Below the pieces are notes generated by a model. That model was not told the DNA's origin. It made no database searches and saw only the letters and a program-made list of their open reading frames with translations. Positions 9,425 through 41,163 of a stretch of 64,000 nt of DNA are shown piece by piece. Location of the stretch: contig JACQZQ010000008.1 of NCBI GenBank assembly GCA_016213785.1, positions 124,001 to 188,000 of the forward strand. Direction: 5' to 3'. This DNA comes from Acidobacteriota bacterium. GTDB taxonomy: Bacteria > Acidobacteriota > Blastocatellia > Chloracidobacteriales > JADJPF01. A program made the position numbers and the translations under genes. Position 1 is the stretch's first letter. Every line of letters starts with the position of its first letter.

Positions 9425-9462
9425 CTCCTTAAAGAAATAACTCCTTAAAAATAAAATAGATT

Positions 9463-9519
9463 TAGCAGGAGAAGACCTAGAAAATCTCTTAAGGATTTCT
9501 CTTGCTAATATTCTTTTTT
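9463..9519 (+). terminator. intrinsic terminator after the cytochrome gene
   Basis: Arms TAGCAGGAGAA (9463-9473) and TTCTCTTGCTA (9497-9507) pair with one G-U. A run of six T follows at 9514-9519. The next gene therefore needs its own promoter. Confidence 0.7.
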
Positions 9520-9571
9520 AAATTTTTGCAAAAATTTTTCTTATTTTGTTATATAGACTCTAAAAATCTTG
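9520..9571 (+). promoter_or_regulatory. copy of the 7048-7098 upstream element
   Basis: It matches 7048-7098 over its length, including TTTGTTATATAG. A TTGCAA at 9526 lies 18 bases before TATATA (9550-9555), so a sigma-70-type promoter is possible. The ATG it would serve is at 9689. Confidence 0.45.
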
Positions 9572-9688
9572 TTTTATTAAAAAAGGATTAATTTTTCCTG
9601 AGTATATTTCAAAAAATTCTAATATAATTCTTAATAAATCCTAAAAATCCCCTAGGAAAAAATTAGCAAAAGTTAAGGAGAAAAAAAT

Positions 9689-22317: not shown

Positions 22318-24639
22318 TTAATCAAAAAAACGTCTAAAATAATCTTGTTGAGCTAATATACGAAAAGAGTAGTTTTTATCTGTAGTAAAAAAGTCTACAT
22401 CTTTACCTACTATTAAACTTTCTTCCACTAAATCTAGCCCACAATCATAAGCAGCAATACCAGCAGAAATCTTGCCACCGAAATAATCTATATTTTTACG
22501 TAATATTGAGACTCCAAAATCAATATTTGAAGCAGGGTCTAACCCATCTTGATTAGCTCTTAGCCATTGTTTATAACGACGATCATCTATTTGCATCAAA
22601 CCATGACCATGACCATTTTTACCAATAATATTTTTACCTGCACTCTCACACCAAATTAGAGAAGCAATCAAGGAAGCATCAATTTTATATTTATCTGCTG
22701 CATTATAAATATGATCTGCCCACTCATCAAAAGGCTCAGGTAAATTAAACTTTCTTTTAGATTGTGGTCGGTCATCTTCAATCTCAAATTCCATTTCCTT
22801 ATTAACAAAAATACCAAACCCTGGAATAAAAGGCTCTGTGTGTTTAATTTCTGGTTTAACATTAGCTGAATTAACACCACGTTCATGAGGAGTAGTTTTA
22901 AGATCTTTATCTACCTTAGTAGATATCGCATTAGCATTTAACTGGCTATTAGTTAACGCTGTTTTTGTTAGTTCTGATTGATTAGGCAATGAGGAAATCC
23001 CCCCTAAATTTGCTTTTGTTTGCTCAAGGGGTAGTTGAGAAAGATTTTTACCTAATGGGTTTTCTACTGTGTTTAATGTTTGGGCTGCTGTTAAATTATT
23101 AGCAGGTAAATTTCCTAGTTCTTGTGCATTAGGAATTCGAACTCTTTGACCTGCAAAAAGTAGAGGATCTTTTAATAATTGAGGATTAGCCTTTAGTAGA
23201 TCAAAAACCTCTATTCCAAGTTCCTTAGCCACTTGCTCTAGGCTTTGCCCAACAGGAATTGATAGGGTTTTAGTATTTGTTGTTGCTATTAACTCTGATA
23301 CATTTGTTGTATTAGTGCTACTAACCGTAGTAGATTGTCTTAGTAAAGCTGTTTTATCTAGTAAACTAGAATTAGCTAAATTGTTAATATCATCCAGAGC
23401 AGAGTTAATTAAGTCAAGTTGGCTAGCTAATAAGTTACCTGACTCTAATTTTAATGTTTGGAGAAAACTATTTTGTCCATTTATTGGGGCGTTAAGATTT
23501 TCATTATCTAAGGCTAGATCTTCTATATCTTGATTTGCAAGCTGTATTAATGGAATGGTTTGGGCTAAGTCTTTATTTGAGAAACGGCTAATTATGTTTT
23601 CTGCTACGGTTTCTATTTCTGTTAAAGGTTGTTGAATGTCAAGGTTTTCATTTAAAGAAATATTATCAGGTAGATTATTAAGCTCATTATTATTAGGAAT
23701 ATCAATTATAACGTCTTTTCCTTTACCTCTTCCTGTTCGCGCATTATCTGGAGGTAATGTTTTATCTTTTATATCAACATCGCTTTCAATTGGAAAGTCA
23801 TCTGTTCTATCAGATTGTACTTCTATTGATTGAGTAATTTCTATTTCTAAAGTATTTTCAACTTCTTCAGATGCTTCAACCGTTGAAGGCGAACTATTAG
23901 GAAGTTGATCAACAGATTTTCCACGATTAGGTCTATCAGGCGCTTTATCAGGCTTATTTTCAGCCTTAAAATCTTCCTTAAAGCTATCTTTTTGATTAAA
24001 TAAGTTTTCAGATTTAACAGCTTGCGCAACCGCTTGATTAACTGATGTAGAAAGCTCTTTAGGGATAGGAAAAGAGCCTGATTTTACTTTATTACCTTTG
24101 TTATTAGGCAAAGACAGATCATTTGCGTTGGGTCGATTAATAGGCGCTTGAAAAAACCTATTGTTATTTGATGTATCATTTCCAAGCCTATTGTTTATAG
24201 AATTTTGGAATTGGCTCTTTAAGAAGTCAGAATTTACCGAAGAATTTACTGAAGAATTTACCGAAGAATTTTGAGTAGGTCGATTTGTATTATTTGGGCT
24301 AGAGTTTGAATTTACTTGAGAGGAATTATTAGCAGGAAGTTTAGTAAATTCACCTGAAAGCTTTTTTTGTAGTCCTGGTGGTAATTTAAGTAACTCACCA
24401 CCTAAAAGATCATCTAGGGGTTTTAGACTACTTAGAGAATCGCGATTTATAGGTTTATCGTTATTATCGCTAGCTGATGAACTGTTAAATTTACCTTTAC
24501 CTGATTCTTTGCTAGGGAGTTGTTTTACTTCCAACCCAATAGGGTTTTCTGCTGCTTTTTCACCCTTTTTATCATTAGTTTCAAGTAGTTCATTATCAAT
24601 GTTGGTGAAATTATTAAATTTTGGCCCATCTATTTTCAT
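22318..24639 (-). CDS. LysM / SLT lytic transglycosylase with long disordered N-terminus
   Basis: About 773 residues. Residues 1-450 are Asn/Ser/Pro/Lys-rich and low complexity, with an SSVN repeat. A LysM peptidoglycan-binding domain lies at about 456-502 and a lytic transglycosylase (SLT) domain at about 635-750, with the likely catalytic Glu in WCESAGKN and the HGLMQIDD block. It should cleave peptidoglycan glycan strands. No signal peptide or membrane helix is visible at the N-terminus, which is unusual for such an enzyme. The start is ATG 24639 rather than GTG 24648, because the SD TAGGTG overlaps the GTG. It lies downstream of two kinase genes on the same strand. Confidence 0.85.
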   Translation of the reverse strand: MKIDGPKFNNFTNIDNELLETNDKKGEKAAENPIGLEVKQLPSKESGKGKFNSSSASDNNDKPINRDSLSSLKPLDDLLGGELLKLPPGLQKKLSGEFTKLPANNSSQVNSNSSPNNTNRPTQNSSVNSSVNSSVNSDFLKSQFQNSINNRLGNDTSNNNRFFQAPINRPNANDLSLPNNKGNKVKSGSFPIPKELSTSVNQAVAQAVKSENLFNQKDSFKEDFKAENKPDKAPDRPNRGKSVDQLPNSSPSTVEASEEVENTLEIEITQSIEVQSDRTDDFPIESDVDIKDKTLPPDNARTGRGKGKDVIIDIPNNNELNNLPDNISLNENLDIQQPLTEIETVAENIISRFSNKDLAQTIPLIQLANQDIEDLALDNENLNAPINGQNSFLQTLKLESGNLLASQLDLINSALDDINNLANSSLLDKTALLRQSTTVSSTNTTNVSELIATTNTKTLSIPVGQSLEQVAKELGIEVFDLLKANPQLLKDPLLFAGQRVRIPNAQELGNLPANNLTAAQTLNTVENPLGKNLSQLPLEQTKANLGGISSLPNQSELTKTALTNSQLNANAISTKVDKDLKTTPHERGVNSANVKPEIKHTEPFIPGFGIFVNKEMEFEIEDDRPQSKRKFNLPEPFDEWADHIYNAADKYKIDASLIASLIWCESAGKNIIGKNGHGHGLMQIDDRRYKQWLRANQDGLDPASNIDFGVSILRKNIDYFGGKISAGIAAYDCGLDLVEESLIVGKDVDFFTTDKNYSFRILAQQDYFRRFFD
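24231..24273. repeat. 12-bp tandem repeat (SSVN codons)
   Basis: About 3.5 units of a 12-base repeat inside the transglycosylase gene encode NSSVNSSVNSSVNS. Copy changes would keep the frame. Confidence 0.7.
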
Positions 24640-24897
24640 ATTAAACACCTAAATTTTTATAGCTAAATTTGTTAAAAGTAAGTTGAAGATATATAAGTTA
24701 AAAGAATATTTGTAAGTAATTATCGGCATTGTAAAGAAAAAGTTACCTTAGATTTCTAGTTAGGGCTTTAAGAAGTTGTTAGTTTTATGTATTTAACATG
24801 AGTAAAACTCCGTAGGTGCTGGAGAAGGCTGCTTATTAAGCTAAAATATTTTGGGGTTGTATTAAAAATATAGTAATTTAACGTAAAGTAATTTTAG

Positions 24898-26058
24898 CTA
24901 AAGAATGCGCTTAATAATAAAGATTAGAAAACATATTAGGAGCAATAGTAGGAAAGCGATACTTCTTTTAACATAAGGAGATGTTGAAGAAATGATTATT
25001 TCGTTATTTTGTGTTTTTTTCCTAGGTTCATAGTTTGTAGCTTTAGAAGGTTGATTTTCAGATGGCTTGGTGGGTGTATTAGTTTGGTTTAATATACTGT
25101 ATCTTTGAATACCTATTGCTTTTTCCAATTCTTCAGCAAATTCTTTTGCTGAATTAAACCGTAAATCAGGTTCTTTGTTTAAGGTTCGCTCTACTACAAG
25201 CTCAACTTGTTTTGGGATGTCATCAACAAAAGAATTAAATTTAGGCGGCTCTGACATTAAGTGATGCATAGCCATTTCAGCGGCAGTCAAAGCATCATAT
25301 GGGTGATGGCCTGTAAGCATCTGGAAAACCACAATCCCAAGACTATATATATCTGAACGAAAATCAATAGTGGTACAACGACATTGTTCTGGAGACATAT
25401 AAGCAACAGTGCCTTGAATAGTACCAGGAGATGTTCTTAGGCTACTAATACCACCACTACTAGATCCACTATCTTCTCCAGTGGCTACTGCCTTAGCAAT
25501 ACCAAAATCTATTACTTTTATCATTTGTTTATTTTCAGTATTTTTTTGAATTAATATATTGGTTGGTTTTATATCACGGTGAATAATTTTCTGTTTGTGA
25601 GCATTTTCTAGAACCAAACAAACCTGATAAATAATATTAGCTGTTTCTTCTAAGTTTATTCTCCCTTTTTGTTCTATTAAATCTGCAAGTGTATAACCTT
25701 CAATATATTCCATCACATAGTAAACCTGTTTATTTGTATAGCCAAAATCAATTATTTTGATTGCGTTAGGATGGTTAATTTTGGAAGTGATCTTAATTTC
25801 ACGAAGAAAACGTGCAACAAACTCTTTATCTGAGGCTAAATTAGGGTGAAGTAGTTTAAGAGCAACGTCTTCATTATGGTGAGCCAAAAAGACTACCCCC
25901 ATACCTCCCACCCCTAAAAACTTTTTTATTAAATACTTACCATCTATTGTTTGATCAATATACTCACGAATATCATAGTCAATCAATGGTGAACTATCTG
26001 TGGAACAACAAATAGAGGTATATGAAAATGTTTGATTGCATTGAGGACAATATTTCAT
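24898..26058 (-). CDS. tail-anchored Ser/Thr protein kinase with N-terminal Cys cluster
   Basis: 386 residues. An N-terminal zinc-ribbon-like Cys cluster (C4, C7, C17, C18) is followed by a kinase domain at about 41-310: GVGGMGVV (49-56), ALK lysine 68, HRD with Asp162, DFG (184-186) and GTVAYMSPE (216-224). A polar linker and a C-terminal membrane helix (about 364-383) follow, with almost nothing beyond the membrane. It is catalytically complete. It starts 34 bases after the stop of the larger kinase gene, so the two are probably co-transcribed and may form a relay or heteromer. Confidence 0.9.
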   Translation of the reverse strand: MKYCPQCNQTFSYTSICCSTDSSPLIDYDIREYIDQTIDGKYLIKKFLGVGGMGVVFLAHHNEDVALKLLHPNLASDKEFVARFLREIKITSKINHPNAIKIIDFGYTNKQVYYVMEYIEGYTLADLIEQKGRINLEETANIIYQVCLVLENAHKQKIIHRDIKPTNILIQKNTENKQMIKVIDFGIAKAVATGEDSGSSSGGISSLRTSPGTIQGTVAYMSPEQCRCTTIDFRSDIYSLGIVVFQMLTGHHPYDALTAAEMAMHHLMSEPPKFNSFVDDIPKQVELVVERTLNKEPDLRFNSAKEFAEELEKAIGIQRYSILNQTNTPTKPSENQPSKATNYEPRKKTQNNEIIISSTSPYVKRSIAFLLLLLICFLIFIIKRIL

Positions 26059-26092
26059 GAAAATCTATTTTCTTAAAACTAACTTCAATATT

Positions 26093-28456
26093 TTATTCTA
26101 GAGAACTTACTACAGTTTCAACCAGTAAGGATCTTGTTGCAGGAGCAAAATCTAAAATAGATGTGTTAGGCAAAGGGCTATAAACACAGCTTTCTTCATT
26201 TAGATCCCATAAACAGGCAGTTGTAGCGGTAAGTAAATGGCCGTTTTTATCATAGTGTAGTATGCCAGTTTTAGATAAGTCTGCAATGTTATAGTCTTTT
26301 ATTTTTTCTCCAGAAATAGGATCAATTTCTATAATATAGGATGGAGAAAGCCCCAACGCAACTTTGTTCCCACCTGTCATAATTGCTACTGCACCTTTAT
26401 TTTGTACTTGCCATTGATGTTTAAGCACAGCAGTTTTTGTTATTTCCCACTGATCAATACGGCCTTTAGGCTCTTTTTCGGAAACTAGGAGTTGTAGAAC
26501 TATATTTGTAGCACTTTTTGTGGTGGCTATATTTAAAGACTCTATATCTCCATATTGGTTAAAAATGTCAGAAATCTTTTGACCATCACTTATACGCCAA
26601 AGTGAGATTAAAGAATTTCTTTTTTCCAATGGATAAGTTACTGAAATGCCTACTCTAATCTGAGGCCGACGTACTGAAGCAACAAGTAGCGTATCATCAG
26701 ATATAAATCTTACATAGTTATTATTTTCTAAAGTGGTTAATTTATTAATGTGTGTGCCTGTAAGAGTATTGATAATATAAATTTCATTAAGACCAGAAAC
26801 AGCAATAAGTTTACTATTTTCTGAAAACTGAAGATCATAAATTGGGTAGAAATTGTCTATAGAAAATTCATTAAGCTTTTTGTGTTCATCTACACTCCAA
26901 ATTTCTATCTTTTGTGAATTGTTCTTTGTTGATTTGGGTGGTTGTAGGAAGGCTACTAAATTGCCATCAGTAGAAAAATGAGCTACAAACTGTTCACTAG
27001 TTATTTTACTAGCTTTTATAGCGTTAGAAGTAGCTAGCTCAAACTCTTTAGAAGAGCTTAGCGAAACAAGTTTTAGCTTTGAATAACTTAAATAGCTTTT
27101 TTCTTTTACTTCCCCTCTATAAGAGGTTTTTAAGTTGTCCCAGTTATCTTCAATTATAGCCCAGTTGCTTACTATTGCTGATATAGCTAAAGCTAGAGAA
27201 ATTATAAAGGATACAGATAAGATCTTACGTATACTTGCTTTTTTACGTTTTTCTTCAGTTAAATGGCTTCCAAGAGCTAAAGCGAATTCTCTAGCACTAG
27301 AAGGGCGTTCACTAGGTTCTTTAGCTAAAGCTCTAAATACAGCCTCTTCAACAGACTTAGGTAAGTTAGGAACCAATTCTAGAAGAGAAGGAGGAGCATC
27401 TTTTAAGTGTTGCATCACTAATTCAAAGCTTTTGCTAGAAAATGGCCGCTTTCCAGAAAGCATTTCATAAGCTATTATTCCTAAGCTATATATATCAGAA
27501 GCTGCTGTTGCAGGTTTTGAAAGACATTGTTCAGGTGACATATAGGGAAGCGTACCTATTAAATTGCCTGTTTTAGTAAGATTATCTATAGACTCTTCAA
27601 AAGGATTTGTCTTAAAGGCAGAAAAATTTTCTGTTTTTATCGCACTTTCGACAGCTGTAATAGATTTATTTTTGTTAGATAGAATGTTTTGCGAAGCAGT
27701 CAACTCATTTATAGATTTGTCATTAGTAAGAATAGAGATTTCTTCTATTTGCGATGACTGTTTATTATTTTGGTTAATCTTTGATAAGTAAGAAGATTTA
27801 ATATCAGTATTTTTCTCTGTATTTTTTTCTATAACTTGTTGATCATTATTTGAGTCTGAATTTGATTGACGTTCGATAAGTTTAGCTAAACCAAAATCAA
27901 GTACTTTAACTAGAAAGCCTGTTGTTTGTTCTTCTAGCCAAATATTATGTGGCTTTAGATCACGATGCACAACCCCAAGCTTATGAGCAGCATCAACTGC
28001 TTGGCAGACTTGATTCATTATATCAACTGTTAATTCAAGAGAAATCGTACCTTTAGTTTTTATAAGTGTACTTAAGTTATAACCTTCAAGAAATTCCATT
28101 ACTAAATAACCGACTTCTCTATGCTCTACTTCAACAAAACCAAAGTCCATTACATCAACTACATTAGGGTGTTTAATTCTACCCGAAGCTTCTGCTTCAC
28201 GTCGAAAGCGGTTGGCAAACTCTTTGTGAGATATGTTTTGTGGCAACAAGGTTTTTAATGCAACATAGCGTTTTAAGCCAAGGTGCATAGCCTTATAGAC
28301 CATACCCATCCCGCCTTTTCCTAAACGAGCTTCAATACGGTATTTTCCAGCAAGTATAGTTGAACCAGGAATACTTTCTTCTAGTGTATTACTATCAATT
28401 GGGCACTGAGTTAAAATATCCTCATAACAACTCTTACATTTTGAACATTCTTTCAT
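26093..28456 (-). CDS. Ser/Thr protein kinase with long activation-loop insert and C-terminal beta-propeller
   Basis: 787 residues. Cys cluster at C4, C7, C10, C18 (ending CPID). Kinase domain about 39-400: GKGGMGMV (46-53), ALK lysine 68, HRD Asp166, DFG (187-189) and GTLPYMSPE (301-309). DFG and the GT..MSPE motif are about 111 residues apart instead of about 20-30. The insert is Asn/Ser/Lys-rich with many possible phosphosites. A membrane helix (about 411-432) leads to a WD40/TolB-like propeller (about 460-787) outside the membrane, a likely sensor or binding platform. It lies in a tight gene run with the TPR protein upstream and the smaller kinase downstream. Confidence 0.88.
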   Translation of the reverse strand: MKECSKCKSCYEDILTQCPIDSNTLEESIPGSTILAGKYRIEARLGKGGMGMVYKAMHLGLKRYVALKTLLPQNISHKEFANRFRREAEASGRIKHPNVVDVMDFGFVEVEHREVGYLVMEFLEGYNLSTLIKTKGTISLELTVDIMNQVCQAVDAAHKLGVVHRDLKPHNIWLEEQTTGFLVKVLDFGLAKLIERQSNSDSNNDQQVIEKNTEKNTDIKSSYLSKINQNNKQSSQIEEISILTNDKSINELTASQNILSNKNKSITAVESAIKTENFSAFKTNPFEESIDNLTKTGNLIGTLPYMSPEQCLSKPATAASDIYSLGIIAYEMLSGKRPFSSKSFELVMQHLKDAPPSLLELVPNLPKSVEEAVFRALAKEPSERPSSAREFALALGSHLTEEKRKKASIRKILSVSFIISLALAISAIVSNWAIIEDNWDNLKTSYRGEVKEKSYLSYSKLKLVSLSSSKEFELATSNAIKASKITSEQFVAHFSTDGNLVAFLQPPKSTKNNSQKIEIWSVDEHKKLNEFSIDNFYPIYDLQFSENSKLIAVSGLNEIYIINTLTGTHINKLTTLENNNYVRFISDDTLLVASVRRPQIRVGISVTYPLEKRNSLISLWRISDGQKISDIFNQYGDIESLNIATTKSATNIVLQLLVSEKEPKGRIDQWEITKTAVLKHQWQVQNKGAVAIMTGGNKVALGLSPSYIIEIDPISGEKIKDYNIADLSKTGILHYDKNGHLLTATTACLWDLNEESCVYSPLPNTSILDFAPATRSLLVETVVSSLE

Positions 28457-28490
28457 AAGTTTTTAGGTATGATAGTTATCCAAATTATAC

Positions 28491-29906
28491 TTAAAGTTTA
28501 GTGAAAGATTCAGCTATAGTGTTTCTACACTTAACTTTCCATTCTTTTGTATCTACAGACCAAATAGCATATTGATTTTTATCATCCTTTTTGAAAAAAA
28601 ATATAACTAAATATTCTTTACTATTCTTTTTATTTTTTTCTTGACTAGCAGACCACTCAAAAGAGGTTATTTTTTGTTCTTTTATAATCTTTGCTGAGTA
28701 TTCTTTAATGGAAAGCCCGCTAGTTATTGAAGGATAATTTTGCACTAGTTTTAGAGCTTTTAACTGTTCTTTATTTTTAGGGTATGCTACTGCCTTATGA
28801 TTTGAAGAAGGCAGGTTAATTATATACAAACTAGCCAAGCATAGACTAACAAATCCTATCATAATAGCCAAAGAGATAGCTATTACTCTATAAGATACGC
28901 TTAAGGATAATGCTTCTTTGGATTTTTTAGATAGCCTAGTTTGGCTTGATAGAAAAGCAGACTTGTTTATAGGTGCTAAGGATAGTTCTAAACGCTCTTT
29001 GCTTAGCTCTTGAACCATTTGTTTAGCCACTTCATTATTAGAATCAATGGTTAGAATTTCCTTAAATTGGGTTGATGCTTTTTCACTTAATCCTATCTGT
29101 TTGTATAAAAAACCAAGCTCTAAATGATAAGAAATTTCTTTAGGGGTTAGCTCTATAGCTTTTAATAAGGCATTTTCTATTTCTTTGCTTTGATTAGGCA
29201 AATTGTGTAAGACTAGTACTAATTGATAGTAATAAGATGAGTTAAGGGGATTAAAATTAATGGCTTGTTTGTAGCAAAAAGCAGCTTGCTCATAATTACC
29301 TTTCATAGAGGCTATTTTGGCTTGATTTGCAAGGTTTTCAGCACGGCTAGCATTAAGCGACATATCTATTAAGTCATCATTTGAGAAATTAGTTAGGGTT
29401 TCTGATGAAAATTCAGATACATTTAGACTCGGGTCAGATTGGGCAAGACTCCCAAAAATTTCAGTAAAGTTTTGGGAATTAGCACTTATTTTTTTGCGAA
29501 ATTTGTTAGCTTTTAATTCACTTTCAATAGGGTTTTTAAGAGTTTGCAATACTGCATTGGCCGCAGCTTTATTACAGTCATCGGCTATTGGGAAACTGCC
29601 ATTTAAGAAAATATTTTTATCAGGTTTTTTTAAACAAATTAGAGTTTTTATAGAAGATGTGTTGTTAGAAGATGAAAATGTTTTTATATGATCAATCTTT
29701 AAATCCATTGGACGTGGCAACAAACTATTTACCGCTTTTATAGTAGCAAGTGCTATAAGTTTTAGAATTTCTTCGTTAGAATTTGTTCCTGTTTCTTCTC
29801 CACATCCTAGACTATCCCCAAGCTTTAATTTGACTATTACTTGAGTCTTTTCTTCTCCTTCAGACATTAGACTTATGTCATCTATTAGTATATTGTGAGA
29901 GTCCAA
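28491..29906 (-). CDS. TPR-repeat membrane protein
   Basis: 471 residues. About 1-140 is an alpha/beta region I cannot name. About 190-305 contains tetratricopeptide repeats (ANQAKIASMKGNYEQAAFCYKQAINFNPLN and following units). One membrane helix lies at about 343-368, and a C-terminal domain of about 100 residues (370-471), probably periplasmic, has an alternating strand/helix pattern. TPRs bind proteins. It is 34 bases upstream of the propeller kinase and may be its scaffold or substrate. An SD (GGGAG) precedes the ATG. Confidence 0.75.
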   Translation of the reverse strand: MDSHNILIDDISLMSEGEEKTQVIVKLKLGDSLGCGEETGTNSNEEILKLIALATIKAVNSLLPRPMDLKIDHIKTFSSSNNTSSIKTLICLKKPDKNIFLNGSFPIADDCNKAAANAVLQTLKNPIESELKANKFRKKISANSQNFTEIFGSLAQSDPSLNVSEFSSETLTNFSNDDLIDMSLNASRAENLANQAKIASMKGNYEQAAFCYKQAINFNPLNSSYYYQLVLVLHNLPNQSKEIENALLKAIELTPKEISYHLELGFLYKQIGLSEKASTQFKEILTIDSNNEVAKQMVQELSKERLELSLAPINKSAFLSSQTRLSKKSKEALSLSVSYRVIAISLAIMIGFVSLCLASLYIINLPSSNHKAVAYPKNKEQLKALKLVQNYPSITSGLSIKEYSAKIIKEQKITSFEWSASQEKNKKNSKEYLVIFFFKKDDKNQYAIWSVDTKEWKVKCRNTIAESFTKL

Positions 29907-30007
29907 AGCGTTTCTCCCTAATAATTTAACAATATAGTGACTTTTTATCTAAAAATCAAAATAGTATCTTGCAAATGATTTTGTCTCTACCAAAGTTTAT
30001 TAACTGT

Positions 30008-30793
30008 TTATTTTGCTGCGGGACTACATTGTTCGTAATTTGGTATTCCTGACCTATCTAAACAGTCAATCTTTTTAGGATAATTTTTTACTGACCAAGG
30101 AATATTTGTTAATGAGTCAGTATAAAAAGCTTTTGTACCTGTTTGGTAAAATCCACCATTAGAATAACTCTGTGGGACAGCTATCATATAAAACTCAACA
30201 ATATCAAACTTTGGTTGTCCAAGCGTATCAATGACCACTGACACATCTATTGGAATCATAACAAAATAATAGCCACTTTTAGCAAATACTATCCTAAAAG
30301 CTTTACCATTAGCTGGTATTCCATCAGTAGCAGCCCCTCCACAGTCTCCTGTACATAGAGTGCCACTACTGCCGCCCCCTTGATTAGCATCGTCATCATC
30401 GTCATCATCATCGTCATCATCATCGTCGTCATCATCATCGTCGTCATCGCTGCTATCACTCCCTTTGGTTCCGCCTCCTTTAGTTCCACCTCCTTTAGTT
30501 CCACCTCCATTACCATCACTACCAGCAATAGTGGCAGAAAGTTTTAACCTTGTACCAAAATCATCAGTAACAAAACCATTTATATAAAGATTATTAGGTG
30601 AAGTAAAAGTACCATAAACACTAAAATATTCATGATTAGCACTCATAAATGATTTTAGTTCAGCAATGGCTGAAGCCTCATTTGCTGCTCGCCTTGAAGC
30701 TATTAAACTTGGTATAGCAATAGCGCTAATTATGCCTATCATCACCATAACAATAAGTAACTCTAAAACAGAAAAGCCTAATGAGTTCTTCAT
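30008..30793 (-). CDS. type IV pilin-like protein with poly-Asp tract
   Basis: About 261 residues. A class III-type prepilin signal is visible: a short basic leader, then G-F-S-V-L-E-L-L with the conserved Glu5, followed by a long hydrophobic helix. After the pilin helix there is a GGGTK repeat (about 105-118) and 20 consecutive Asp (codons at 30389-30448), then a Cys pair (CTGDCGG) and a beta-rich end with a further Cys pair. The start is ATG 30793 (AAGGA 6-7 bases upstream), not the frame opening at 30826. It is 101 bases upstream of the TPR gene. It is probably a minor pilin or pseudopilin; an acidic surface that could bind Ca2+ or other cations is inference. Confidence 0.85.
   Translation of the reverse strand: MKNSLGFSVLELLIVMVMIGIISAIAIPSLIASRRAANEASAIAELKSFMSANHEYFSVYGTFTSPNNLYINGFVTDDFGTRLKLSATIAGSDGNGGGTKGGGTKGGGTKGSDSSDDDDDDDDDDDDDDDDDDDDANQGGGSSGTLCTGDCGGAATDGIPANGKAFRIVFAKSGYYFVMIPIDVSVVIDTLGQPKFDIVEFYMIAVPQSYSNGGFYQTGTKAFYTDSLTNIPWSVKNYPKKIDCLDRSGIPNYEQCSPAAK
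30389..30515. repeat. GAY codon run and GGGTK repeat
   Basis: Twenty GAT/GAC codons in a row (30389-30448), then three near-identical 15-base units encoding GGGTK (about 30467-30511), inside the pilin-like gene. Length changes would be in frame. Confidence 0.8.
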
Positions 30794-31051
30794 ACATTTT
30801 CCTTTTAACAGTTTTAAATAAAACATAATTTATATGCAAGAAATAAGCTTAAGTTAAAATAAGGTGATTGGGGTTTAGATATGTTTACTTATGTTGTTGT
30901 AAATTATTTTACAAGAATAAGGTTTGCAAAATCCATAATAAATAGCTATAAACTTATTAAAATTTTTATAGATAGAGTTTCCCAGTGGTTTTAGAAAACC
31001 TTTTGGTTTGGATAGGGTTTAGTATTTTATTAAACTAAGTTTTATACTCAC

Positions 31052-31336
31052 TTAACTATTGCTATCAGAATTATTTTCAGTTGTTGTATCTTGTTTATTA
31101 CTCTCTTCTTCTACACGCTCTCGAACACGTTGAGCAAACTCACGAACGCCTTTTTTACGAATAATTAACGCAGCTTCGGCTTCAGCTGAAGTTTGAGCCG
31201 CTTGTTCAGCAGCAACCATATCACCAGCTTCCATTACTAGGCGCATAATCTCATCTGATTGGTTAATTAGTTGATTTAATTGTAAGGTATTTTTATCTGT
31301 TGCAAGTTTTTTAGCATCAGTGGGCTTAATTGCCAT
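31052..31336 (-). CDS. small hypothetical helical protein
   Basis: 94 residues, probably two helices (about 10-45 and 45-80) and a disordered Thr/Asn/Ser tail. It has a strong SD (AGGAG) and no membrane segment or signal. Family not recognised. It is divergent from the gene at 31527. Confidence 0.6.
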   Translation of the reverse strand: MAIKPTDAKKLATDKNTLQLNQLINQSDEIMRLVMEAGDMVAAEQAAQTSAEAEAALIIRKKGVREFAQRVRERVEEESNKQDTTTENNSDSNS

Positions 31337-31526
31337 AATTTTTTTCTCCTAGCAAACTTGAAATAATTATGGATAGGGTGTATCGCAAAATAACATATTT
31401 TTTCTTTTGCTACAATTAGCAGATTAAAAAAAGAATAAATTTTGTTATATGCTATAGTTGCCCTATGTTTATGGATAGAGTATCTTTTATGCGTAACACC
31501 TATACAAAGTTCTAGGAGTAACAACT

Positions 31527-33438: not shown

Positions 33439-34011
33439 TTAATAATATTGTTTTTCTAATGAAGGTGCTGGTTGTTGGGAATCATTTGGTTGAGGAGTTG
33501 GACTAGGTGTTTGCCCAGAAGGGTTTTGCTCAGGGGTAGTTGTAGGAAGAGGTGGTGCTTCAACTGCTTTATTAATAGTGAAATTTATACTTTCAGTTCT
33601 AAAATTGTATGATTGCTCAATATCAGGATTAGACATAACTAACCAGTAGTAATTATGGTTTGCTTGAAAAAATGATTGTTGATAACGATCAGGTTTATAT
33701 CCAATTTGATCAGTAATTTGTCTCATTACTAACTCGCTATCTTCTTTATCATAAACCTCTATAACATAAGAAATATTAGATTTATTACTTTCCCACTGAA
33801 AATCTAATTCATCTGCTCCTAAAACTTGCTCACTTTTAGGGGTAAGCAATTTAACATTAGGTTTAGAAAAGAACTTATATCCAAAAGCTGCTACTATTAA
33901 AAAAATAATTACTCCAAATATTTTGAAGTTTGTTGGAGAAAAGCCATCTAAAAGAACTTTATCTTTTTCTGGAGCAATAAATTTTGGCGTTTTAGGTTCT
34001 GGACTTGACAT
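33439..34011 (-). CDS. single-pass membrane protein with Pro-rich tail
   Basis: 190 residues: a cytoplasmic N-terminus of about 28, a membrane helix (about 31-48), a beta-sandwich-like periplasmic domain (about 55-145; LDFQWESNKSNISYVIEVYD), then a Pro/Thr/Gln-rich tail. The sandwich resembles fibronectin-III or Ig-like folds in pattern only. It follows the minor pilin genes on the same strand. Its start codon lies 9 bases after a GC-rich hairpin, and the only good SD (AGGAG) lies before that hairpin. A role with the pilus genes is possible but not shown. Confidence 0.65.
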   Translation of the reverse strand: MSSPEPKTPKFIAPEKDKVLLDGFSPTNFKIFGVIIFLIVAAFGYKFFSKPNVKLLTPKSEQVLGADELDFQWESNKSNISYVIEVYDKEDSELVMRQITDQIGYKPDRYQQSFFQANHNYYWLVMSNPDIEQSYNFRTESINFTINKAVEAPPLPTTTPEQNPSGQTPSPTPQPNDSQQPAPSLEKQYY

Positions 34012-34019
34012 AAAATAAT

Positions 34020-34046
34020 TAAAGGGCGCTACTCTAGCGCCCTTTA
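34020..34046 (-). terminator. GC-rich hairpin between the pilX-like gene and the next start
   Basis: AAAGGGCGCT/AGCGCCCTTT (11 bp with the flanking pair), 5-nt loop, then AATTATTTT on the minus strand. It may terminate the minor pilin transcript, or bridge the AGGAG at 34048-34052 to the ATG at 34011. Confidence 0.65.
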
Positions 34047-34061
34047 TCTCCTATTGAGGGT

Positions 34062-37000
34062 TTAATTTGGTTTTTGACGTTGTACTTGACTTTGTTGGAA
34101 TCCTTTGAAATCAACTAATTGCAGGAATGGAGATCCTGGTGGTAGTGTACAAGGGTTATTAAAGTCAGTGTCAAATATCCAGTCACGGTTAGGTGGTCTA
34201 TATACATAGTCTACTTCTCCAGCAGTTGTGAAGCCTAACGTCTTGCCAGCCCCACCAACGCGCTTAAATGCACCATTACCTTGAGTGCTCTTATAGATTC
34301 TTATTAAAGAACCTGAGTAAGTAGCAAATTGAGGGTTGTCATCATTTTGTCCCCAATCTTCTAAGAATCTTGGGAAATTATTAAGTGCACCAGAAGAATA
34401 TGAAGAATTAGTTCCTTGGTGAATAGTTAAAGAGTTAGCCCCATTGACACCATTCCAGTATTGAGGATACCAACTTGGAGTAAAACCACTAACTAAAGCA
34501 AACCTATAGACACTATTTCTTGCTGGACGATAACCAATTGCTTGATAAGGTGTAATAAAGCTACGGGAATCTAACCAACCAGCATTATTATCAGTCGTAC
34601 TCCAATTAGTATTTGAAGAGCCTACACAAACACCAGAGAGTAAAGTAATTGCATCTGCAACTATTGCAGCAGGAACATGGCAATTATTTCCACAAGTGTC
34701 AAAATCATTACCATTAAAGTATGTTGGTCTTGTTGGAGCATTTGTTCCTGTGATTACAGGCACCATAACTCCACCTGTTGGAGTAATTCCTGGAAATGCA
34801 TCGCCAGTATCACCTACTTCAGCAGCAGGAGCATTAAAGTTACCTAATACATAAACAGGGTTTTCTGAAATTATATTTACCCCTAATGGGAAATTACAAA
34901 CTCCAATTCTTGGCCCTGTTGGGAATAGGTTACTAGCATTTACTAGTCTAGTTCCCCTACGGAACATTTCTACTCTTAATCTTGTAACATCTGTATCATA
35001 GACTGGAGCAGGTTTACGACTCCATTGTGCATTTCCAGTAGCAGCAGGCTGATTAAAGCGATTAGTTCCTACTTGAGTCATTGCTATTATATTACCCATT
35101 CTAGCCGTAGTGTTAGGTTGTGTAGCATAAGTAGTTGCTCCATCATATTGGTCTTCTGCTGTAACATTTCCAGCTGTTGGAGGCAATGTACCGCTATAGA
35201 AACCATCGGTATAAGGCGCTGTTTCACTAAAACCACTATTAGTAGTTTCTCTAGCTATAAAACAGTCATTATTAGCATCTTGAGGCGATTTTCCTTCATC
35301 CCTATTGTTAGAGTTAAGTCCTGGATCACACCCAAAAGGTGCTGCCATTGCTGCTGCGCTGGTTGCTACTTGAATTGCAGCGGGGTTTCCTCCATTAGTA
35401 TTTCCTCCATCGCTCCAAACAACGTCTTCACGGTTGTATTCACCATCGCCAATCAAGCTAGGTGTACCAGGGGTAGGTGTTGGGAGTTGAGCACCTGGAG
35501 TCTTAACATTTGGATTAGTATTTAATACTGGCTCATCACCACGACGATCAGACATATAGACTAACCAGCCATTATCTTGATTTAAGTCAATATTATCTCT
35601 TAATTGGGCTGCTGTTAATGGGTTTCCTGTTGATTGTCTAAATGGAGTATTTCCCATTTGAGAGAATAACGCGTCAAAATCACCTTTAAGTAATCTTCCT
35701 AGATTACCCATATCAATTTCAACTAAATTCATTGTTCCAACTTTAGTAACTGCTGTACGAACAAGACCACGAACAGGAGGATCAGCCGTAGCACCACCAT
35801 TAGGTTCATGGGGGGTGCCTTCACGAGAGTCAAACATATTAATTGGGAAAGGTACTAAACGGTGTTTTTGTGGAGTTGCTTGATTATCCATTACACTCCA
35901 AGTTGTTTCACCATCTTGAAATACTACAGATTCTACATTTGTAGAATCTGGTAAATCGCCTGGCATAAGAGGAGCATAAGGTTTTTTAGGTGTATTAGCA
36001 TTTTCAGTTAATTGAGTAGTTGCTGTTGGTGCAACATAATTACTTGTTGTTGCATTAGCATTACCGCTGAAATCTATAGATTGTCTAGCAAGTGTGTCAG
36101 ATTTTGCAGGTAGTTGCATACGGCCTGGAATCCTATTTAAGGTTGTTCTTGGGCCTGGGCTTGCTGTATCTGCGTCTGTATAGTAACCACATCTATCAAC
36201 CTGAGGTTCATGATAAGCTGCGCCTGTTGTATCGTTTCTGGTTAAATATTTACCAGCGCCATCTAAATTATCTTCTATACCAAACATATTAAGACCACCA
36301 GGATTATTAAAAGCTCGTCTTGCCATGCTTGAATAGTAATCAACTATAACATTTGTTAGGTTGTTTAAGCCTTGAGGTACATTAGCAGAAGTTAAATCTG
36401 CTGGCATTGCATCATTTAGAGTAGCAGACTTAGCATTTGTATAAGGTACTCCAAAACGTTGTATGTGAAGAATAGAATTTTCATCTGGGAATGGGCCAGT
36501 TCCAAAAGGTAATGGGCCATTTTTATATGCAGCTGATGGGAAACTTGCTGTAGCTCTAGGATAGTAAAAAGCTCCTGTGGAATTAGCTGAGTAAGGAACT
36601 GTTAGCCCTAGGTTGAGTATTTCTTGAGTAATATCTTGGGTTAAGCCATTAGCGCGAACAACTTCAACCTTAATCCATCCATGAACTCTATAGCCATTAA
36701 CACGAGCGCCTGTAGGACGAGGTACACCATCTGTTGGGCTAATAACTTTAGGAACATAGCCTCTTGGTAGAGGTCTATTTGAGATTCCTGCAACAGTATC
36801 ATCTGGCATATAAAACCAATTAGGATTAGTTGTAGGAAATCCAGAAGCCTTTACGGTTTCTGTGCCTGTCATTGCAAGTAATGGATCTGGTGCGTCTAAC
36901 TGAATACCACCAAAAGGCCCAGTGGCTGATGTTGGATTAGTTACATCATCTCCTGGTACAACACTTCTTGGTAGTTGAGATTGATAGTCAGCTAGAGTAA

Positions 37001-38222
37001 CACGAATAGAGGGTTTATAGTAATAACGTGCACTAAAATATGGAGAACTGCGTGGAGGATCAAAATCTGATGATAAGCCACGTCTAATTAATTGGATTGG
37101 ATTAGCATTAAGAATAGTTTGGATAGGTAGTTGTAACCTAGGAGCACCTACGTTAATAAAGGGTCGTTCTTGGGTATTTAGTGGGCCACAAGTTCCTGCT
37201 CCTACATCCTGAGAAGGGCTACCTATGCTGTTACAAGCAGGTGCTGGTACTCTAGCTCCTGTTCTAGCGCTACCTTCATTCTCTTCTAAATCTCTAGTAC
37301 CCCCTGCTGTATTGATATCATAAAGCATTAAAGTGTCATTATTAGTATTGGTACTATATTTTTCATTACCAATAAGCATATGTTTCCCAACACTTATACG
37401 TGCTGGGCCACGAGAAACATTACCATTTGCATCAGCAAAATATTGAGAAAATCTAATATTTTGGTTTCGATTACGAGTTAAATAGAAATTATTATTGGTA
37501 TGTACCCAACCACCAAAAGCCCAATTAGGAGGAACATAAAGTTCAAAGTCTGAGTCTGAGAAAATACCAAATTGGAATAATGGTAATAAAAGGTTGTCAA
37601 AATCACGGGTAAGTTGTAGATCAGCACCACCTCGGACTTGATTAGTTACAGTAGCAACTTGGCGATAGCGTCTAATAAAAGCTTGTAGTCCAGTATAAAC
37701 ACCTGTGTTTATTTGGAGTGGATAAGGTGGACGTGCTGCAACAGTACAACCTGCGACGCTAGGACTAGGGTTACAAACATCTACAATACAAAAATTGGGT
37801 TGTCCTACCCAACCTAAGTCAAATAAATTGGAAGAAGAATAATCATTAGAAGAATAGCCTGGAGCACAAGGTGAGCCTGGGGGACAGCTTACATTAGGTT
37901 TTACTACTCGAAAATTATTGAGAACATCTGGTGGAGCAAGTACTACTCTACAAAGCGAGTCATAGCTAGGATTAGTAGAATTAATAAATAAAGAGCTAAA
38001 ATCTCTAGACATCTGCTCTAGTTTTGAAAATGCTGTGTAATAAGCTTTTTGCTGTGCTACTTCAAAATTAGAGGAGACAGTATCAGTAGTTGTAATTGTT
38101 AAAGAGGCACTTACATAAATAGTCAACAAAGCTAGTAAGAGCGTGACTATTATCAGGGCAGAACCACGCTCTTTAGCCTTGCGGCGTAAATACTTACGCA
38201 CAAGTTTTTTTAGTAATTTCAT
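34062..38222 (-). CDS. giant PilX-like pilus protein
   Basis: 1386 residues. The N-terminus (about 18-50, RGSALIIVTLLLALLTIYVSASL) matches PilX-type minor pilin helices: a glycine at the processing site and no Glu5. The body is Asn/Thr/Pro/Gly-rich, probably beta, with Cys concentrated in pairs (for example CGNNC) that may form disulfides. PilX is normally under 250 residues, so about 1100 residues are added. It lies last in a fimT-pilV-pilW-pilX order, where pilY1 often follows; no pilY1 is present, so this protein may take on the tip or adhesin role (inference). An SD AAGGAG precedes the ATG. Confidence 0.8.
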   Translation of the reverse strand: MKLLKKLVRKYLRRKAKERGSALIIVTLLLALLTIYVSASLTITTTDTVSSNFEVAQQKAYYTAFSKLEQMSRDFSSLFINSTNPSYDSLCRVVLAPPDVLNNFRVVKPNVSCPPGSPCAPGYSSNDYSSSNLFDLGWVGQPNFCIVDVCNPSPSVAGCTVAARPPYPLQINTGVYTGLQAFIRRYRQVATVTNQVRGGADLQLTRDFDNLLLPLFQFGIFSDSDFELYVPPNWAFGGWVHTNNNFYLTRNRNQNIRFSQYFADANGNVSRGPARISVGKHMLIGNEKYSTNTNNDTLMLYDINTAGGTRDLEENEGSARTGARVPAPACNSIGSPSQDVGAGTCGPLNTQERPFINVGAPRLQLPIQTILNANPIQLIRRGLSSDFDPPRSSPYFSARYYYKPSIRVTLADYQSQLPRSVVPGDDVTNPTSATGPFGGIQLDAPDPLLAMTGTETVKASGFPTTNPNWFYMPDDTVAGISNRPLPRGYVPKVISPTDGVPRPTGARVNGYRVHGWIKVEVVRANGLTQDITQEILNLGLTVPYSANSTGAFYYPRATASFPSAAYKNGPLPFGTGPFPDENSILHIQRFGVPYTNAKSATLNDAMPADLTSANVPQGLNNLTNVIVDYYSSMARRAFNNPGGLNMFGIEDNLDGAGKYLTRNDTTGAAYHEPQVDRCGYYTDADTASPGPRTTLNRIPGRMQLPAKSDTLARQSIDFSGNANATTSNYVAPTATTQLTENANTPKKPYAPLMPGDLPDSTNVESVVFQDGETTWSVMDNQATPQKHRLVPFPINMFDSREGTPHEPNGGATADPPVRGLVRTAVTKVGTMNLVEIDMGNLGRLLKGDFDALFSQMGNTPFRQSTGNPLTAAQLRDNIDLNQDNGWLVYMSDRRGDEPVLNTNPNVKTPGAQLPTPTPGTPSLIGDGEYNREDVVWSDGGNTNGGNPAAIQVATSAAAMAAPFGCDPGLNSNNRDEGKSPQDANNDCFIARETTNSGFSETAPYTDGFYSGTLPPTAGNVTAEDQYDGATTYATQPNTTARMGNIIAMTQVGTNRFNQPAATGNAQWSRKPAPVYDTDVTRLRVEMFRRGTRLVNASNLFPTGPRIGVCNFPLGVNIISENPVYVLGNFNAPAAEVGDTGDAFPGITPTGGVMVPVITGTNAPTRPTYFNGNDFDTCGNNCHVPAAIVADAITLLSGVCVGSSNTNWSTTDNNAGWLDSRSFITPYQAIGYRPARNSVYRFALVSGFTPSWYPQYWNGVNGANSLTIHQGTNSSYSSGALNNFPRFLEDWGQNDDNPQFATYSGSLIRIYKSTQGNGAFKRVGGAGKTLGFTTAGEVDYVYRPPNRDWIFDTDFNNPCTLPPGSPFLQLVDFKGFQQSQVQRQKPN

Positions 38223-38259
38223 AAATAGGTCTCCTTAAGAGATTATTATAGTGAGAAAA

Positions 38260-39477
38260 TTATGGGTTTGTTGGAGGTGCAGGAACATTAATAAAGTTAG
38301 TTCTAAAAATATTTCTAACTCCAAAAGTTCCTTCTAAGGTAAAGCGATATAAATAACCTTTTCCTCTATCTAGTTCAGTTGGTGAGGTAACTTTAATACG
38401 ATTATCTCGATCGGCTGCACGAACTTTTAAAGATACATTTACTTCACGTATATCATTTAGTCTATACTCTGGGTCAGCACCACCATTAGTTGCTCGGCCA
38501 TTAAAACCTGGATCATCTATTGCCACATTTATATTAGGGTCATTTATATTATAGGTAAATTGAAGATCTTCTATTCCAGTAGCAATTATATTGTCAAAAT
38601 AACAAGTCCCATTACAGTTATAAGTACTTCCATTTGGAGTAACTTGAGCTACAGTAGTAACATTATTACCTCCTGCTGTTGTATGTGGAGGAGGAAGTAG
38701 TTCACGCCTAATTAAATTACCATCAACATCAACAAAGAAAGTAAGAAAGGAAAAGCGATAAGCTAGGATAGGAGGTTGTACAGGTATACCTTGTATTGGT
38801 AAAGAGAGGTCTGTTAAAGGTTGGTTAATATTATCTGGTGGAGGTACAATATTACCAAAACGATTTATTTGATAAGGGTCTGAGTTAGCTAAAGTAATTA
38901 TTCTATTAACTGGGTCAATGCCAGTAATAACACCAATTGCAGACACTGTACTTCTGTTTAAGTAGAGAAGGTCGCCTACAAATAAACCATTTAACATCCC
39001 AGCCGCAACTGTAAGAGTCGCGCTAGCACCTGTAGCATTATAAGTTCCAGTTAAAGGTAGGCCATTATTAAAAGAAGGGTCTACTGAAACTAAAGTAATT
39101 TGGTCAGTTGTATTAAATACAGGAGTGCCACCACTATCAACACCTACTCTTACTTGATTTAAGTTATTACCAGGAATAAGGGGTGTTAATAAATAAACTC
39201 CATTCATATCTGCTGGCCCAGATAGGTTATTAAATAAACTAGCTGTTCCTAAACGAACCTGGGGAGCAAAATTAAAGCCTGCATTAGTAATATCACGACC
39301 CATTGTAATCATTGCACCACGAGCATTTTGTTCAATATCAGTTGTCCTAATGGTAGTGGAGCGATTAGCTTGGCCTACACGTAGAAAAGAAAATAATGGG
39401 CCAATAAGTATTAGTAATAAAACAGCAGCTATTAAAAGTTCTATGAGGGTAAAACCTCGTTGGGCATTTTTTTTCAT
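38260..39477 (-). CDS. PilW-like minor pilin
   Basis: 405 residues. Prepilin signal QRG-FTLIELLIAAVLLLILIG with Glu5, then a pilin helix to about 45 and a beta-rich domain; a C-terminal block RDNRIKVTSPTELDRGKGYLYRF is typical of PilW-like proteins. It is processed by the prepilin peptidase (gene not in the window) and should prime or cap the pilus with PilV and PilX. Gaps to its neighbours are 18 and 37 bases, so it is in one operon. An SD (GGAG) is present. Confidence 0.88.
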   Translation of the reverse strand: MKKNAQRGFTLIELLIAAVLLLILIGPLFSFLRVGQANRSTTIRTTDIEQNARGAMITMGRDITNAGFNFAPQVRLGTASLFNNLSGPADMNGVYLLTPLIPGNNLNQVRVGVDSGGTPVFNTTDQITLVSVDPSFNNGLPLTGTYNATGASATLTVAAGMLNGLFVGDLLYLNRSTVSAIGVITGIDPVNRIITLANSDPYQINRFGNIVPPPDNINQPLTDLSLPIQGIPVQPPILAYRFSFLTFFVDVDGNLIRRELLPPPHTTAGGNNVTTVAQVTPNGSTYNCNGTCYFDNIIATGIEDLQFTYNINDPNINVAIDDPGFNGRATNGGADPEYRLNDIREVNVSLKVRAADRDNRIKVTSPTELDRGKGYLYRFTLEGTFGVRNIFRTNFINVPAPPTNP

Positions 39478-39495
39478 TATTGTTTCTCCTGCAAG

Positions 39496-40119
39496 TTACT
39501 GTAAAACATTAAAGTTTGCTATTTGAGTGCTTAAAGTAAGGCTTTCGCGGCCACCAGTAGCATTAGGGTAATTAACTGTTACATCTATTTGCTTGGTTGC
39601 AGGCCCGACATCTGTAATAACGACTTGCCTAGTAAAACTAGTTAAAGGAACTCTTTTGTTATCTGCGGTAGTAGAAAATTGACCATCTAGTCCAGGCGTA
39701 ATATCTAGAGTAACAAGATTTGTTCCTAAACTAGGACAAGGTGCCATAGCGTCAAAAGTGCCTGTTCTTCCATCATCACAAGTTCCATAAACTCCATCTG
39801 GGCCTGCTGTTAAAGCTGCTGCAACTACGCCAGTAAAACGATTTACAGCTGGAGGGCCTGGAGGGCTGATTGTAGAGTTAAAATCGGAAAATGAACTAAA
39901 CCCAGGTTTGCCGGATTCTTTAGCTGTTATTATTGTTTCCATTATGCTATTAGCTAGTTGTTTAGCTAGAGTTTGTTGTTTAGAGCGTTGGGGTAATGTC
40001 ACCCCTACTACTAAACCTCCAGATAAAGCTACTAAACCAATAGTGATAATTACTATTGATATAAGAACTTCAATAAGAGAAAACCCTTTTTGGTTTTTAA
40101 TAATTTTAATAATTTTCAT
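39496..40119 (-). CDS. PilV-like minor pilin
   Basis: 207 residues. Prepilin signal QKG-FSLIEVLISIVIITIGLVAL with Glu5, the IGLVAL segment being characteristic of PilV. A Cys pair lies in the middle of the globular part (CDDGRTGTFDAMAPC). It lies between the fimT-like and pilW-like genes and is co-transcribed with them. Confidence 0.88.
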   Translation of the reverse strand: MKIIKIIKNQKGFSLIEVLISIVIITIGLVALSGGLVVGVTLPQRSKQQTLAKQLANSIMETIITAKESGKPGFSSFSDFNSTISPPGPPAVNRFTGVVAAALTAGPDGVYGTCDDGRTGTFDAMAPCPSLGTNLVTLDITPGLDGQFSTTADNKRVPLTSFTRQVVITDVGPATKQIDVTVNYPNATGGRESLTLSTQIANFNVLQ

Positions 40120-40154
40120 ATGTATTTATAACCTAATAAATAATAGGTTGCCTC

Positions 40155-40838
40155 CTAACTATTAGAATCTATTTTAGGCGACCATTTGTTAGGTGTGCCA
40201 TTAGGAAGAAATCGCCAAAACTTAAGCCCACCTGTTGCACCATATAAAGTGACTGCTCTAAGTAATGTGGGGGATTTAGTTTGATCTATATCAAATGAAG
40301 AAAAGTAAAATATAGAATAATTTTGAGTTCCTGTGCCGGTAGAAGCATTAACAGCACGTCCAGCAGGATCAAAATAAGTTACATATGCTGCTGTAGTGAA
40401 ATCAAATTTACTAAAGCTACGTTCTGGAGCAGGAAAATCTGTATTAGGTGGTGCAGAAAAGAAACTAGCATTAAGAATTACATCAGGAGGTAGTTGTTTA
40501 GTTAAAGTGATTTTTTCATCGACTGTCTGTAATTGCCCCATATCTACTAAAGAAACGCTTTGCGCTAAAAAAGTCATAGTTACAGGAGTATCTGTATTTG
40601 GCAAAGTTATAGATTGATCGGTTGGGGCAGCATTTATTACTACTGCATAAAACTGACGTTGGGTTATTGACTGTATACGAGCTTGACGCATTATATTATA
40701 GATTGAAGCCGCAGCATCTTCTGTTTTAACCATACGCCTATTAGGATTTAAAGAGGTTATTGTTAAAGCTGTTAAAATACCTAAGATTACTAATACCACT
40801 AGTATTTCTATGATGGTAAAGCCTTTTTGTTTTTTCAT
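40155..40838 (-). CDS. FimT/GspH-like minor pilin
   Basis: 227 residues. Prepilin signal QKG-FTIIEILVVLVILGILTAL with Glu5, followed by the RQARIQSITQRQ segment typical of FimT/GspH proteins. ATG 40838 is chosen over an upstream TTG, which sits too close to the SD AGGAG. It is the first gene of the minor pilin run. In related systems FimT can bind DNA and aid uptake; that is not shown here. Confidence 0.87.
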   Translation of the reverse strand: MKKQKGFTIIEILVVLVILGILTALTITSLNPNRRMVKTEDAAASIYNIMRQARIQSITQRQFYAVVINAAPTDQSITLPNTDTPVTMTFLAQSVSLVDMGQLQTVDEKITLTKQLPPDVILNASFFSAPPNTDFPAPERSFSKFDFTTAAYVTYFDPAGRAVNASTGTGTQNYSIFYFSSFDIDQTKSPTLLRAVTLYGATGGLKFWRFLPNGTPNKWSPKIDSNS

Positions 40839-41163
40839 AAGGAGCAAACTCCTAAATTTGTCGTTAATAGTTAAAGATTTTATTAAATTAAAGTTAAGGT
40901 TTTGTTAGAAAATGTAAAGAACTAACCCTAAATTCTAGAAGATTTTTTTGAACAAAGGACTTAAATTTATTTGATTTTGGTTAAGATTTAGGGGAAAGTC
41001 CTTACAAGACACACTATTACACTTATCTAGATAACTTACACAAAAATGGACGCTTAAGCAATGGAAAAGTCCTTAAATTGGAAAGAAAATTAGAATTTTA
41101 TTAAAATTTTTGTTTTTACTAAAAAATAGGTTTATTTATAAAAATTTTCTTTTGAGTTTATGT
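40839..41163. other. 325-base gap before the minor pilin genes
   Basis: AT-rich with no ORF. AAGGACTT and AAGTCCTT occur as spaced inverted copies (near 40957 and 41000, with another near 41070). They could be operator half-sites for the pilin operon, but no clear promoter was found. Confidence 0.3.

Follow-up and report, generated by a model that had tools for sequence, protein, structure and literature searches.

A PilA-like Pilin, a Membrane TPR Protein and Two Membrane Ser/Thr Kinases Encoded in One Run in an Acidobacteriota Genome

Arrangement of the Gene Run

A pilin gene, a gene for a membrane TPR protein and two genes for membrane Ser/Thr kinases follow one another on the minus strand of an Acidobacteriota genome, with a gene for a lytic transglycosylase (SLT) next in line, and the question that the locus raises is whether these genes belong together functionally. 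The window analyzed here is a stretch of 64,000 nucleotides. It contains the following features.

22318..24648, minus strand: lytic transglycosylase with LysM and SLT domains (profile match)
24898..26058, minus strand: K1, tail-anchored Ser/Thr kinase (profile match, hydropathy)
26093..28456, minus strand: K2, Ser/Thr kinase with a TM segment and a WD40-type propeller (profile match, hydropathy)
28491..29906, minus strand: membrane TPR protein, 471 aa (TPR profile match, hydropathy)
29931..29959, minus strand: promoter-like TTGATT-17-TATATT, 24 bases ahead of the TPR start codon
30008..30793, minus strand: PilA-like type IV pilin, 261 aa (ORF list, profile match, GFxxxE at residues 6-11)
31052..31336, minus strand: small protein of 94 aa encoded upstream of the pilin (91% identity with the sister species)

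The first-pass annotation had described the order pilin, TPR, K2, K1, all on the minus strand, and all five open reading frames, including that of the LysM/SLT protein, lie where it placed them. The gaps of 101, 34 and 34 bases between the four genes are correct by ORF coordinates; the gap of 258 bases to the transglycosylase holds when measured from the ATG, which lies 9 bases inside the open reading frame (24648-22318, GTG start), and becomes 249 bases from the GTG. The pilin open reading frame has a second in-frame ATG at 30826, and the start codon of the TPR gene is a TTG preceded by a AGGGAGAA-like site. The promoter-like site ahead of the TPR gene is weak, the region having fewer such sites than its shuffles. 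On the minus strand the TPR, K2 and K1 genes are joined without a terminator-like site between them, and the 34-base gaps suggest their co-transcription; the three are predicted, probably correctly, to form one short, young operon.

Two features of the surroundings were also recorded. The motif ACYCTATCCATAA has three minus-strand copies, one with a mismatch, within 520 bases (window 30966-31481); these lie upstream of the 94-aa gene and of the pilin gene, and the expectation for the whole window is 0.19. A genomic island recognizable by composition was considered and rejected, because the GC content of the block (0.32-0.34) equals that of its surroundings.

The Pilin, the TPR Protein and Their Neighborhoods

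The pilin has the short leader, the GFxxxE processing motif (here GFSVLE) and the hydrophobic N-terminal helix by which type IV pilins are recognized. It scores over the cut-off of the NCBIfam model TIGR02532 (IV_pilin_GFxxxE) and just below that of Pfam N_methyl (20.4, cut-off 21.2); its best-scoring NCBIfam model is PilA of Myxococcus, and its nearest relatives are PilA-like pilins. The label of minor pilin given in the first-pass annotation is putative. With type IV pilins of the PilA kind it has the N-methylation motif and the long N-terminal helix in common but, unlike them, it carries a low-complexity acidic insert. The globular part contains inserted Gly/Thr/Lys repeats and a run of 20 Asp residues, in agreement with the earlier description of a pilin-like protein with poly-Asp; the run is encoded by a GAT/GAC tandem repeat (window 30388-30448) that is a possible slippage site. 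In a paralogous pilin at C102 the insert is Asn/Gly, and in the copy of the sister assembly G001 (G001:C311) it is a Gly-Asn-Ser repeat, so it looks variable and of low complexity.

The TPR protein comprises an N-terminal domain of ~140 aa, TPR repeats at ~189-300, a TM segment at ~332-355 and a C-terminal domain of ~100 aa. Profile matches to the repeats and the single TM segment predicted by hydropathy at ~332 bear out its annotation as a TPR membrane protein, and the C-terminal ~100 aa are predicted to lie outside. The N- and C-terminal domains have no Pfam match and no credible PDB match, and the single-sequence AlphaFold model (pLDDT 49) was too poor for a structure search. The full architecture was not found beyond the genus among about 96 relatives, and a GTDB scan with the protein gave no matches. 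No recognizable orthologue is present in G001, where the best match is the orthologue (67%) of a paralogue encoded at C108 in the same genome as the window. The N-terminal domain taken by itself (window 29457-29906; L113 3499-3909) occurs in 15 copies in the genome, mostly as stand-alone proteins of ~140 aa, and also in other Blastocatellia; it is present in 11 of the 58 genomes searched.

A TPR gene stands beside a pilin gene in the window, at C108 of the same genome and at C115 of G001. At C108 the TPR paralogue (8205-9569, plus strand) and the pilin (9603-10184, minus strand) are convergent and 33 bases apart; at C115 the orthologues of the two are separated by 51 bases. The pair is 67 and 63% identical across the species (TPR 67%). 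A third TPR paralogue (C31; C551 in G001) has neither a pilin nor a kinase next to it, and no kinase adjoins the TPR paralogues at C108 or C31. Pilin-motif matches in the genome number only 26, at about 17 locations, and it is therefore unlikely by chance that two of three TPR paralogues lie beside a pilin; a rough, post hoc estimate for some 5,000 genes is ~2e-4. Because a second TPR-pilin neighborhood, without kinases, is kept in two species, the link between the two proteins gains support, and a TPR-pilin partnership is plausible. The orientation differs, being tandem in the window and convergent at C108; the two neighborhoods could stem from one old duplication. If the partnership is real, the TPR proteins are a candidate pilus accessory family in Blastocatellia, present at two loci.

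The Two Kinases

K2 is a Hanks-type kinase (Pfam Pkinase, 7.7e-48) in which the VALK, HRDLKPHN and DFG motifs can be read. Hydropathy gives one TM segment at ~407, with basic residues on the kinase side, which would place the propeller outside the cytoplasm. One predicted TM segment in each of the TPR protein, K2 and K1 agrees with an N-in topology. A profile of the C-terminal part of K2 matches WDR5 (3e-7) and the solved WD40 domain of PkwA (5yzv, 3e-4), and Pfam WD40 models match all four family members; the propeller that the first-pass annotation saw in the larger kinase is thus real at the level of the family. Foldseek with the K2 propeller also lists WD40 propellers, the predicted model used being of low confidence. 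The propeller half was not found beyond the genus among 28 relatives, and a GTDB scan with it returned the sister MAG and distant WD40 proteins only.

PkwA of Thermomonospora curvata is a Ser/Thr kinase with WD40 repeats (PMC6113231, PMC5587647), and in K2, too, a WD40-type propeller comes after the kinase domain. Unlike PkwA, K2 has a Cys cluster, a DFG-to-SPE segment of 118 residues, a predicted TM segment ahead of the propeller and degenerate blades. With PknD of Mycobacterium tuberculosis it shares the receptor layout of kinase, TM segment and extracytoplasmic propeller (PMC3322341), but the PknD sensor is highly symmetric, six-bladed and of another propeller family (PMC3322341), whereas the K2 propeller is WD40-like. 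The DFG-to-SPE segment of K2 (window 27530-27900) is rich in Ser, Thr and Asn, and its 118 residues compare with 22-36 in most of the genome's kinases examined; long segments are also found in the C34 paralogue of K2 (109) and in an L131 kinase (96). Several other kinase matches in the genome stop at the same profile position as K2.

K1 is tail-anchored, as had been proposed, with a single TM segment from ~360 of 386 residues, almost no tail and no signal peptide by hydropathy. It has no recognized orthologue in G001, where its best match is the syntenic orthologue (79%) of another of the genome's kinases, C8. An origin of K1 and K2 by tandem duplication was rejected, since the best match of K1 in its own genome is C8 and that of K2 is C34.

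Both kinases carry the N-terminal Cys cluster pointed out in the first-pass annotation (MKYCPQCNQTFSYTSICC; MKECSKCKSCYEDILTQC). Most of the own-genome matches listed in the K1 search align from the Cys cluster onward, and such clusters are common among the kinases of this genome, so they do not tie K1 to K2. The 6.4-Mb assembly has at least 170 protein-kinase domain matches, which makes two adjacent kinases with Cys clusters not unusual. Base rates come from the 150 matches that were listed and from 52 sampled kinases. The listed matches form 18 same-strand pairs at ≤3.5 kb versus 7 expected by random placement, at least three of the 18 being two matches within one protein; the sample includes 26 kinases with a TM segment, 4 that are tail-anchored and 14 with a Cys cluster, the last figure being an undercount from a strict pattern. 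Very many divergent paralogous kinases are likewise a feature of the Ser/Thr kinase expansions of Acidobacteriota (e.g. Solibacter, PMC3174227). In the literature searched, we found no described case of a kinase-TPR-pilin set in Acidobacteriota.

Gene Order in Related Genomes

The sister assembly G001 is the only same-genus genome that was compared; its completeness is 87% and it consists of 840 contigs. It shares 78-91% identity with the window in the orthologues that flank the block, and its contig C378 has the order 94-aa gene, o125, K3, PilT. With its end 131 bases past the 94-aa gene, this contig stops directly in front of the block, the position of which is therefore not visible in G001; absence from so fragmentary an assembly is weak evidence. 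The pilus-like cluster at 33439-40847 of the window (an HpsA-like protein of 1386 aa and PilW/PilV/GspH-like proteins) is absent between K3 and PilT on C378. Contigs C458 and C809 of G001 were tried as its home and rejected, as they have no match to the cluster.

The transglycosylase has other neighbors in both relatives in which it was located. In G001 it directly follows the kinase K5, the window homologue of which is at 57808-58944, and in the family mate G003 it adjoins thioesterase, RibH and NusB (window 62826 to 61735). Because K5 and SLT are 33 kb apart in the window and adjacent in G001, the adjacency of SLT and K1 is attributed to rearrangement on one lineage, and the gene orders of G001 and G003 rule out SLT as a member of the set. 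Neither TPR nor K1 adjoins C680, the best match of K2 in G001 (49%): another kinase precedes it by 18 bases, and the next gene downstream is convergent and unrelated. By sequence, K2 and C680 may be either orthologues or paralogues; for other paralogue pairs compared across the two genomes, identities are 59-79%.

The comparison of gene order that had been proposed as a check thus gives a divided result: the TPR-pilin adjacency recurs in both species, but SLT and K2 have other neighbors in the sister. A conserved module of four or five genes is not borne out, given these different neighbors and the lack of orthologues of K1 and the TPR protein in the one, incomplete, sister genome. The two kinases and the transglycosylase have the appearance of ordinary neighbors rather than of a conserved signaling module; wherever conservation of the combination is testable it is lacking, and the parts are of known kinds.

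Interpretation of the Locus

We give a little better than an even chance to a reading of the locus as a lineage-specific run of paralogues with two sub-units, namely a TPR-K2-K1 operon and the TPR protein as a partner of the pilin. K2 would then be an ordinary receptor kinase with its WD40 propeller facing the periplasm, and ligand-driven dimerization would activate its cytoplasmic Hanks kinase domain and lead to autophosphorylation. K1 would be tethered to the membrane through its C-terminal anchor and may serve K2 as a substrate or amplifier. The TPR protein would be mainly a pilin partner: its cytoplasmic TPR region would bind cytoplasmic proteins, and its TM segment and small outer domain would be positioned at the inner-membrane site of the waiting prepilin. 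Joint sensing of pilus or cell-wall state by all members is not needed for this. It is very unlikely, in our judgment, that the TPR protein is a new, genus-restricted inner-membrane adaptor that partners PilA-like pilins and has recruited K2 and K1 at this locus, as a two-kinase relay that reads the state of the pilin.

That rearrangement in a genome rich in paralogues has made mere neighbors of the four genes, with no functional links, the TPR-pilin pair included, seems to us rather unlikely. Rearrangements do flank the block, where SLT has moved and the pilus cluster at 33439-40847 is missing between K3 and PilT in G001, and adjacent kinases are common in the genome; the 34-base gaps, however, suggest a co-transcribed TPR-K2-K1 unit, and the TPR-pilin neighborhood at the second locus is kept in two species. 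The first-pass annotation had proposed a possible envelope signaling module. In a four-gene version of it, the K2 propeller and the outer domain of the TPR protein would sense the state of the pilin or pilus, and the TPR region would bind a common target that K1 and K2 phosphorylate. Gene order, gaps and predicted topology are consistent with such a module, as is the recurrence of the TPR-pilin neighborhood. We nevertheless regard it as quite unlikely, since neither of the other TPR paralogues adjoins a kinase, the nearest K2 relatives (C680, C34 and C236) adjoin neither such a TPR-family gene nor a pilin gene, and no orthologue of K1 was recognized in G001. The TPR-pilin half of the proposal is supported, but the four-gene module is without comparative support and a kinase module for pilus or cell-wall sensing is hypothetical.

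A further reading concerns K1 and K2 only and is compatible with the two-sub-unit explanation that we prefer. K2-K1 would be one case of a recurring tandem of a receptor kinase followed by a tail-anchored kinase, acting as a membrane relay of two kinases with a sensor domain that is swapped from case to case. C34 and C107 have the same layout, with respective gaps of 18 and 7 and with sensors that are FGE-sulfatase-like, and of the four tail-anchored kinases in the sample of 52, three come immediately after a membrane kinase. There are only three cases, two of which resemble duplicates of each other, and K1 and K2 are not together in G001, so we consider this reading doubtful. If the layout proves recurrent, it would suggest how Ser/Thr kinases are wired in genomes that have more than a hundred of them. 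The tandems with FGE-sulfatase-like domains are at L117 5474-8656 and L128 3658-6622, the domain following the TM segment of the upstream kinase.
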